Shown piece by piece: positions 62,673-64,000 of a stretch of 64,000 bases of DNA. The notes beneath the pieces were generated by a model. That model saw nothing but the letters and a program-made list of their open reading frames with translations, ran no database searches and was not told the DNA's origin. Source of the stretch: Epilithonimonas bovis DSM 19482 (GTDB lineage Bacteria; Bacteroidota; Bacteroidia; Flavobacteriales; Weeksellaceae); contig NZ_FTPU01000011.1 in NCBI RefSeq assembly GCF_900108115.1, forward strand, positions 1-64,000, written 5' to 3'. Position 1 is the stretch's first letter. The number at the start of each line of letters is the position of its first letter. A program made the position numbers and the translations under genes.

Positions 62673-62745
62673 GGTTTCTTAGCTCAGTTGGTAGAGCAAC
62701 GGACTGAAAATCCGTGTGTCCCTGGTTCGATCCCTGGAGAAACCA
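62673..62745 (+). tRNA. tRNA-Phe (GAA)
   Basis: The 73-nt sequence folds as a cloverleaf: acceptor GGTTTCT / AGAAACC, D stem GCTC / GAGC, anticodon stem ACGGA / TCCGT with loop CTGAAAA (anticodon GAA, Phe), T loop TTCGATC and discriminator A. CCA is not encoded. The T stem CCTGG / CCTGG has a U-U mismatch at 62723/62735. The gene has its own promoter and terminator and is the likely integration site for the element that follows. Confidence 0.93.
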
Positions 62746-62770
62746 CGAGAAACAACAACAATTTCTTACA

Positions 62771-62805
62771 AAAGCCCTTAAATCCTAGTATTTAAGGGCT
62801 TTTTT
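62771..62805 (+). terminator. Intrinsic terminator after tRNA-Phe
   Basis: Arms 62771-62783 and 62790-62802 form a 13-bp stem (AAAGCCCTTAAAT) followed by a T run. Confidence 0.85.
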
Positions 62806-62994
62806 GTTTTTTGAGAAATTCAAAATAATACAAATTTTCTCAAAAATTAGGTGACCTTCTCGGTGACCTGCCATTTTTTGAACTTTATAGGTAACCGAAT
62901 TCTTTGTAAAAGCCTATCAATAGAGGTGTAGAGCAATTGAACATCTTGTCTGATAGGTCGCCAAAAGGTAATTTTAACCCTTAAAGTCATCAAT
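62806..62994. other. Spacer between tRNA-Phe and the recombinase gene
   Basis: This region carries GGTGACC twice (62850-62856 and 62862-62868) and a related AGGTAACCG at about 62890, and GATAGGTCGCC at about 62952. Such short repeats next to an integrase gene may be recombinase or excisionase arm sites, but this is only a guess from position. No gene is supported. Confidence 0.35.
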
Positions 62995-64000
62995 ATGAAT
63001 GCAAAAGTTTCGGTATTATTTTATGCCAGAAAGTCGAAAGCGAAATCTAGTTCCAAAATCCCAATTTACATGCGGATTACAGTAGATGGACAACGAACAG
63101 AATTTTCAACAGGAAAATTTGTTGAAGGTAGCAAATGGAATCCTGCTCAAAGTCGTTTAAAGGGCAATTCTGAGGAGGCGCGCGTTATGAACAAGCATTT
63201 TGATATTCTACAAGCAAAAGTCCTCGAAATCGAAAATAGACTCGTTTTCTTAGGCGACCCTTTCGATGCTACGGATATTAAGAATTTGCTCACAGGAACA
63301 AAAACAGCGGAAAGATTCTTGATCCCAATTTTTGAGGAACACAATTCCAAAATGGAAAAACTTGTTGGCAAAGAGTATGCGATTGCGACCCTTAAAAATT
63401 TCAAAACTTGTTTGTCGCATTTGAAAGAATTTTTGTGGACATTTCACAAAAAAGCGGATATCAATATTCAGAAATTGGAACCGTCTTTTCTCAATGATTT
63501 TGATTTCTTTCTACGAACAAAAGCGAATATCAACAATAATTCTGCGGTGAAGCACACCAAAAACTTGAGTAAGATTTTAAAAATCTGTTATCAAAACAAT
63601 TGGATAGAAAAAGATTTGGTGATTTTCTACAAAGGCAGATTTAATGAAGTGAATGTGAATTTTCTAACTGATGAGGAACTTTCATCAATTCGCGAGAAAG
63701 AATTTTCGGGAAAAGGTTTGGAACTTGTTCGTGATATGTTTGTTTTCAGTTGCTATACAGGTTTGGCTTACATCGATATTTTTAATCTTACAAAAGATCA
63801 ACTTTCCAAAGGAATTGATGGAAATCTGTGGATTATCACAAACCGACAGAAAACGGGAAGCGCATCAAATATTCCTTTACTTCCAGTTGCTGAAGAAATT
63901 ATCAAGAAATACGAAAATCATCCAGTATCTTCCAATTCTGGAAAACTGCTCCCAGTTTATACCAATCAAAAGGTAAATGAATATCTGAAAACGATTGCCG
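62995..64000 (+). CDS. Tyrosine recombinase / integrase of a mobile element (truncated by window end)
   Basis: 335 codons run open from the ATG at 62995 to the window end. The N-terminal arm-binding region starts MNAKVSVLFYARKSKAKSSSKIPIYMRITVDGQRTEFSTGK, then a SAM-like core-binding domain (about 110-215, KEYAIATLKNFKTCLSHLKEFL) and the start of the catalytic domain, with FSCYTGLAYIDIFNLTKDQL and the beta-hairpin lysine in NRQKTGSASNIPLL. At residue 258 the usual first arginine is Ala, as in CTnDOT-type integrases, which also lack it. The C-terminal His-Arg-Tyr part lies outside. With tRNA-Phe 250 bp upstream, it marks the left end of an integrated element. Confidence 0.9.
   Translation, partial: MNAKVSVLFYARKSKAKSSSKIPIYMRITVDGQRTEFSTGKFVEGSKWNPAQSRLKGNSEEARVMNKHFDILQAKVLEIENRLVFLGDPFDATDIKNLLTGTKTAERFLIPIFEEHNSKMEKLVGKEYAIATLKNFKTCLSHLKEFLWTFHKKADINIQKLEPSFLNDFDFFLRTKANINNNSAVKHTKNLSKILKICYQNNWIEKDLVIFYKGRFNEVNVNFLTDEELSSIREKEFSGKGLELVRDMFVFSCYTGLAYIDIFNLTKDQLSKGIDGNLWIITNRQKTGSASNIPLLPVAEEIIKKYENHPVSSNSGKLLPVYTNQKVNEYLKTIA

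Follow-up and report, generated by a model that had tools for sequence, protein, structure and literature searches.

A genomic island at the first of two tandem tRNA-Phe genes of Epilithonimonas bovis, its recombinase family and an HsdM-HsdS-kinase fusion among its genes

Background

What kind of DNA follows the tRNA-Phe gene near the right end of the analyzed stretch of the Epilithonimonas bovis DSM 19482 genome? The window, i.e., the whole stretch of 64,000 nucleotides that was analyzed, corresponds to positions 1-64000 of a contig of 95,602 bp, and the same numbering is used here beyond position 64000. ARAGORN finds a sole tRNA gene in the window, tRNA-Phe at 62673-62746. The open reading frame (ORF) 62995-63999 begins 249 bp after this gene and leaves the window. 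A sequence-only reading had seen here the left end of an element integrated at tRNA-Phe, with a recombinase starting about 250 bp past the tRNA.

Tyrosine recombinases of the IntCTnDOT subgroup were described by Smyshlyaev and co-authors (2021, PMC8138268). An island of the same order, the 10K genomic island of Riemerella anatipestifer, was reported to be integrated and excised by its integrase, as shown by PCR (PMC6764341). A limited search of the open-licence literature listed no paper on the E. bovis element at tRNA-Phe.

Data and methods

Pfam was used to scan 26 of the 29 island ORFs of at least 60 aa, PADLOC to scan 20 island proteins and PHROG to scan eight. The recombinase family was collected by a scan with one genome per species, which gave at least 80 named Bacteroidota loci. 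We read 107 family loci, in which two records are duplicated (L045/L096 and L048/L105). Among the matches listed, 70 rows have at least 44% identity and an upstream tRNA. A quick tree of the family was built from 102 rows.

Results

Boundaries of the island

The features of the left end are as follows.

60737-62581, plus strand: left chromosomal flank, gene of an acyltransferase/GNAT protein of 614 aa (PF19576/PF13444)
62673-62746, plus strand: tRNA-Phe(GAA), found by ARAGORN; first copy of a native tandem pair, its 3' end being the attachment site
62733-62746, plus strand: attL core CCTGGAGAAACCAC, identical to attR at 92313-92326, outside the window
62747-64000, plus strand: part of the island inside the window; the whole island is 62747-92326 (29,580 bp)
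62770-62803, plus strand: element-borne terminator-like hairpin with a perfect stem of 14 bp, a loop of 6 nt and a T-run
62850-62856, plus strand: candidate integrase arm site GGTGACC, copy 1 of a direct repeat
62862-62868, plus strand: candidate integrase arm site GGTGACC, copy 2 of the direct repeat
62889-62900, plus strand: candidate arm site AGGTAACCGAAT, with an inverted copy at 92249-92260
62995-64251 (in the window to 64000), plus strand: gene of a tyrosine recombinase of 418 aa, assigned by Pfam, with Ala258 at the Arg I position

At 92313-92326 there is an exact repeat of the 14 bp that end tRNA-Phe, and it extends to 16 bp if one mismatch is allowed. This 14-mer has exactly three copies in the 3.35-Mb genome, namely attL, attR and the native second tRNA-Phe, and its reversed pattern, taken as a control, has none; thus the repeat is not a chance one. 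To the right of attR there are a terminator and a spacer that resemble those 3' of the first tRNA-Phe in related genomes. The repeat of the tRNA end followed by native-like sequence defines the island as 62747-92326. Its GC content is 33.7%, compared to 38.5% in positions 1-62746 of the window. The expectation of an integrated element at tRNA-Phe is therefore borne out by the tRNA-end repeat at both ends and by the recombinase at the left one.

The core had been placed at about 62720-62745, which is essentially right, yet the repeated part is only 62733-62746. As predicted, the tRNA 3' end does recur downstream when a shorter probe is used, but the search with 27 bp of this end is misleading: it finds only the native tandem tRNA-Phe (92485-92511), which lies just to the right of the true attR and confounds such a test.

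This second complete tRNA-Phe gene (92438-92511) is identical to the first one in 74 of 74 positions. We considered it as the att copy and rejected it, since it is a native tandem partner, which occurs, free of any insertion, in most genomes of the genus. The two copies are 139-194 bp apart, with nothing inserted between them, in 18 of 23 genus genomes (E. bovis is counted among the 23); of the others, three have a single tRNA-Phe, and E. bovis and genome G009 have copies far apart. The empty site is thus present in close relatives. Joining the flanks of the island in silico agrees with this, because the virtual empty site has tRNA-Phe copies 185 bp apart versus 191-194 bp in several relatives, and its terminator and promoter spacer are native-like. 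The acyltransferase/GNAT gene adjoins tRNA-Phe in all 22 other genus genomes (88.7-94% identity). The flank to the right of the tandem pair is variable: in the short stretches read, coaD is found there in 8 of 22 genomes, and the Fur gene that stands beside the pair in E. bovis is found there in none of the 22.

The recombinase and the anatomy of the left end

The E. bovis recombinase matches PF00589 (3.8e-15), PF13102 (1.6e-14) and PF17293 (1.7e-11). Its Arg I position is occupied by Ala258 (SCYTGLAYID); H347, R350, H374 and Y383 are present, and neither Ala258 nor R284 varies in the alignment with relatives (13 of 13). The three domains and the alignment agree with the previous assignment of a tyrosine recombinase with Ala258 at Arg I. 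IntDOT has Ser at this position, which distinguishes it from the E. bovis enzyme. The latter also belongs to a family that targets the 3' ends of tRNA and tmRNA genes and not CTnDOT sites.

The domain set by which the IntCTnDOT subgroup is described comprises PF17293 for arm binding, PF13102 for core binding and PF00589 for catalysis in one protein of Bacteroidota, and the E. bovis recombinase has this set. In one of the two states described for the subgroup, Arg I is replaced and a conserved Arg lies downstream (PMC8138268). By analogy with this description, R284 may substitute for the lost Arg I. The label "CTnDOT-type" is hence valid for the recombinase subgroup but not for the element, as no conjugation gene was found in 26 of 29 ORFs scanned.

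NBU1 of Bacteroides has a core of 14 bp and carries a mobilization gene; unlike NBU1, the island has no mobilization gene in 26 of 29 ORFs scanned. The NBU1 recombinase is described as a member of the same subgroup that inserts at the 3' end of tRNA-Leu and, unlike the E. bovis one, keeps Arg I (PMC8138268). The 10K island of R. anatipestifer, as reported, is likewise a Flavobacteriales island at a tRNA gene, with the differences that the site is tRNA-Arg, the att repeat has 53 bp, the length is 10 kb and the cargo is other (PMC6764341).

The hairpin begins 23 nt past the tRNA end, and its fold has a z-score of -5.3 against dinucleotide shuffles. It may replace the native terminator, which the insertion parts from the tRNA. 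The putative arm site AGGTAACCGAAT is also found in a related element of G009 (see below). We rejected GGTGAC(C/A) as a family-wide arm signature because just 6 of 70 family members have it.

The recombinase family and other elements at the same site

Ala at Arg I is found by motif pattern in 104 of 107 family loci among the matches listed. The remaining three are L058 with Ser, the fragment L066 and the E. bovis locus itself, whose Ala258 was identified by alignment. Among the matches listed, the tRNA genes upstream of the recombinase in the 70 rows are mostly Ser-TGA (37), Asp (13), Val (7) and Ser-GGA (6), and more rarely Tyr (2), Lys (2), Phe (1, in E. bovis), Ala (1) and Ser-GCT (1); in eight further family loci the site is tmRNA. 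The tRNA-Phe specificity is thus unique to E. bovis among family members in the matches listed.

The arrangement next to these sites is uniform. Among the matches listed, the integrase starts 245-288 nt past the tRNA in 62 of 70 rows, a hairpin of at least 12 bp with a T-run is found in 67 of 70, and in 66 of 70 it lies 21-24 nt past the tRNA. No such hairpin appeared in 1400 shuffles, which were simple ones that do not keep dinucleotides. Across the many tRNA and tmRNA 3' ends that the family uses, the anatomy is the same: att, the hairpin after about 22 nt, and the integrase at about 250 bp. The tree requires at least 18 changes of the tRNA label. The E. bovis recombinase groups as sister to a clade whose sites are mostly tRNA-Asp (14 rows with E. 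bovis, SH-aLRT 97), a placement that is unsure due to its long branch (0.96).

Genes of an HTH protein, a RepO-like protein and a DnaC-like protein follow the integrase in the same order and on the same strand in 18 of 80 named loci among the matches listed; of these 80 loci, 62 have at least 6 kb past the integrase start. In Cloacibacterium normanense (L107, at tRNA-Ser) the order is integrase, this trio, WYL, the fusion gene considered below, receiver and HsdM, which recalls the order in the E. bovis island. No attR was found within about 10 kb in any of 50 named family loci among the matches listed. Repeats of the tRNA-Asp end lie 30-115 kb apart in genomes of the genus, which suggests longer sister elements.

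Two other elements occupy the tandem tRNA-Phe genes in the genus. Genome G009 has a decayed sister element at the same tRNA-Phe: about 300 bp of its left end are 81% identical to that of E. bovis, two integrase fragments are left, and a partial attR precedes the native second tRNA-Phe. Genome G022 (L071:946-4915) has an unrelated element of 4 kb at the second tRNA-Phe, with another integrase (25% identity) and with the same core at its end. Integration at the tandem tRNA-Phe pair has thus happened repeatedly in the genus. The genes now present in the G009 sister (L070:1888-11758) are different; judged by eye, they include a large SusC-like gene and what resembles a two-component pair.

Cargo genes

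The following genes lie to the right of the integrase gene.

64349-65826, minus strand: AbiEii/AbiEi
66500-66835: HTH_17 protein, matches a PHROG family
66843-67637: RepO-like protein, named from its position; its PHROG matches are families of unknown function
67600-68241: DnaC-like loader (PHROG, 1.4e-16)
68631-69641: WYL protein
69735-71003: DUF2130 protein
71045-71700: vWA-like gene (named by eye), broken, in two frames
71743-74964: HsdR
75100-76557: HsdM
76595-78609: PDC-M37A and PDC-M37B, PADLOC candidates (1.1e-110 and 2e-147)
78578-79960: HsdS
79970-81484: protein without an assigned name
81555-82691: ImmA/IrrE-like protein
82694-83188: DUF4411 protein
83281-83607: HIRAN protein
83660-84343: ThsB-like TIR protein (match 2.2e-116)
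84951-87425: HsdM-HsdS-kinase fusion, 824 aa
87406-88536: receiver
88606-90348: 580-aa protein
90420-91337: 305-aa protein

The presence of cargo to the right had been foreseen; between the integrase and attR there are mostly genes that, judging by their predicted functions, are likely to serve defense. PADLOC, run on 20 island proteins, recognizes no ThsA, so that the TIR protein is without the partner of a Thoeris pair in this set. The vWA-like gene is probably a pseudogene or an assembly error; as it is broken, some decay of the island may have begun. In the 580-aa protein we see by eye what we take to be SF2-helicase-like motifs. No homologue of this protein other than itself was found in 395 genomes of the order and 390 genomes of the phylum, in plasmids or in the PDB, and its single-sequence structure has a mean pLDDT of 34.7 and is unusable.

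As a separate observation, PDC-M37A and PDC-M37B (the latter an AAA ATPase) are embedded between type I hsdM and hsdS.

Nature of the island

The island is almost certainly a non-conjugative integrative element of 29,580 bp inserted at the first tRNA-Phe by its own recombinase of the IntCTnDOT subgroup. Site-specific insertion is supported by the att repeat, the 185-bp flank join, the conserved left flank and the G009 sister, and further by the core shared with the G022 element, the drop in GC content, the Pfam domains and, among the matches listed, the hairpin anatomy (66/70) and the trio (18/80). The recombinase would join attP to the last 14 bp of the first tRNA-Phe. This would leave the tRNA whole, and the terminator carried 23 nt inside the element would take over from the native one. 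If the island is still active, it would be excised by recombination of attL with attR, possibly with the HTH_17 protein encoded at 66500 as excisionase, and might replicate by means of the RepO-like and DnaC-like proteins. The cargo could pay the element's way by defense: the candidates are AbiE, the type I R-M system in which two genes are embedded, the ThsB-like TIR protein, an ImmA/PIN pair, and the degenerate HsdM/HsdS-histidine-kinase fusion with its receiver.

Pfam finds no relaxase or T4SS family in 26 of the 29 ORFs of the island, i.e., these ORFs lack the conjugation genes of a CTnDOT-like ICE. An integrative mobilizable element could make do with an oriT and a relaxase from outside, or could encode one that escapes recognition, and the IntCTnDOT subgroup is described as including both the ICE CTnDOT and the mobilizable NBU1 (PMC8138268). 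The lack of a Pfam relaxase match in the same ORFs argues against it, and we regard such an element as unlikely, albeit worth keeping in mind.

Capsid, terminase and tail genes, which a prophage would carry, are likewise absent from 26 of 29 island ORFs by Pfam and from eight proteins by PHROGs. A satellite of the PICI kind, replicated by RepO/DnaC-like proteins and packaged by a helper phage, would agree with the PHROG matches of the integrase, the HTH_17 protein and the DnaC-like loader and with the fixed order integrase-HTH-RepO-DnaC in 18 of 80 named loci among the matches listed. We consider it somewhat less plausible still: no packaging or capsid-interference gene is recognized in the island, a viral collection contains just 7 loci of the family, and 29.6 kb is large for a PICI. 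Finally, the two tRNA genes that flank the region are native tandem copies with identical 74-bp sequences, and homologous recombination between them might have trapped unrelated DNA. We regard this as highly improbable, because a partial repeat of 14 bp (92313-92326) with a native-like spacer behind it is the mark of site-specific insertion at the first copy, the integrase is in its canonical place, and the decayed G009 sister shares both ends.

The HsdM-HsdS-kinase fusion and its receiver

One gene of this integrative element encodes a protein of 824 aa with Pfam matches to N6_Mtase and HATPase_c. Consecutive parts of a profile of nine such fusions match EcoR124II HsdM (7.9e-48), HsdS (2.6e-9) and histidine kinases (6.8e-9). 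The protein thus resembles the type I M.S complex (EcoR124II HsdM, PDB 7bst) in matching HsdM and HsdS and differs from it in a mostly non-canonical motif IV and in the histidine kinase fused behind.

The fusion was found in 9 of 395 genomes of the phylum (E. bovis included), and the receiver gene adjoins it in all nine loci. A search with the receiver profile gave 13 of 390 genomes of the class (E. bovis included), 10 of them new; the fusion or a part of it is upstream of the receiver in 9 of the 10 new loci and is whole in seven. As for the rest, L185 has only the kinase end at a contig edge, L197 is broken, and the contig of L202 starts too near the receiver for a decision. The fusion is also found in L107 and L138, and the fusion-receiver module is kept in about 20 loci. 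One of the loci (L203) is on the mobilizable plasmid pFM-G13 of Myroides odoratimimus (NZ_CP037428.1), where the fusion stands beside a full type I R-M set in the row WYL, kinase fusion, receiver, HsdM, HsdS, phospholipase D-like protein, HsdR.

All 17 fusions share the kinase residues H567, N701, H705, N736, G738, G764 and G766, and the receiver has D13, D58, K123 and T/S99 in 20 of 20 sequences. The phospho-His, the N and G boxes and the receiver D/D/T-S/K are therefore all present, which makes this a two-component pair at the level of residues alone. The canonical motif IV of methyltransferases has the pattern [NDS]PP[YFW]. It is found in 4 of 17 fusions versus 12 of 12 neighboring stand-alone HsdM proteins. 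Hence, the signaling half is kept and the catalytic half is mostly lost. The model of the receiver has a mean pLDDT of 79.8, and only the first part of it gives matches, to PorX and other receivers; for the C-terminal domain the comparison gave no fold match.

We propose that the fusion is a sensor of DNA modification that signals by phosphotransfer. Two observations count against this reading: four fusions keep motif IV, and the HsdRMS genes of E. bovis are upstream amid other cargo, compared to a position directly behind the pair in several relatives. In its full form the proposal is tentative, although we take it as a real possibility: in a DNA-scanning two-component immune switch, catalysis would be mostly lost, DNA recognition kept and the kinase live, contact with wrongly modified DNA would make the kinase phosphorylate itself at His567, the phosphate would go on to Asp58 of the receiver, which would turn on restriction or killing modules, and the whole would be spread between tRNA sites by the element family with its att, hairpin, integrase and HTH-RepO-DnaC genes.

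The pair could also be an ordinary R-M regulator or one of the HEF_HK/Response_reg_2 pairs, and thus nothing new. Two-component-like pairs linked to R-M systems have been published; as described, they resemble the pair studied here in an adjacent soluble kinase and receiver, the linkage to R-M systems and the conserved His and Asp (PMC8011034). However, the kinases listed there have the architecture HATPase_c_3+HEF_HK(+HATPase_c) with no methyltransferase fusion, in contrast to the E. bovis kinase, which forms the C-terminal end of a degenerate HsdM-HsdS protein. Moreover, PF19191 and PF19192 match none of the nine fusion/receiver members, and the HsdM, HsdS and kinase segments of the fusion each match solved structures. 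We therefore find the ordinary explanation rather doubtful. A limited search of the open-licence literature listed no description of the fusion, and the HsdM-HsdS-kinase module may be new.

Discussion

As an island, the E. bovis element is one more tRNA island of a known kind. It also illustrates that tandem tRNA genes can yield false att sites. Its recombinase family is a clean one, with different tRNA and tmRNA ends and a fixed anatomy of the left end, and thereby offers a ready set for studying how tRNA specificity changes. The fusion, if our reading of it is true, would link DNA recognition of the restriction type to a phosphorelay and would make two-component sensing of foreign DNA modification by bacteria directly testable.
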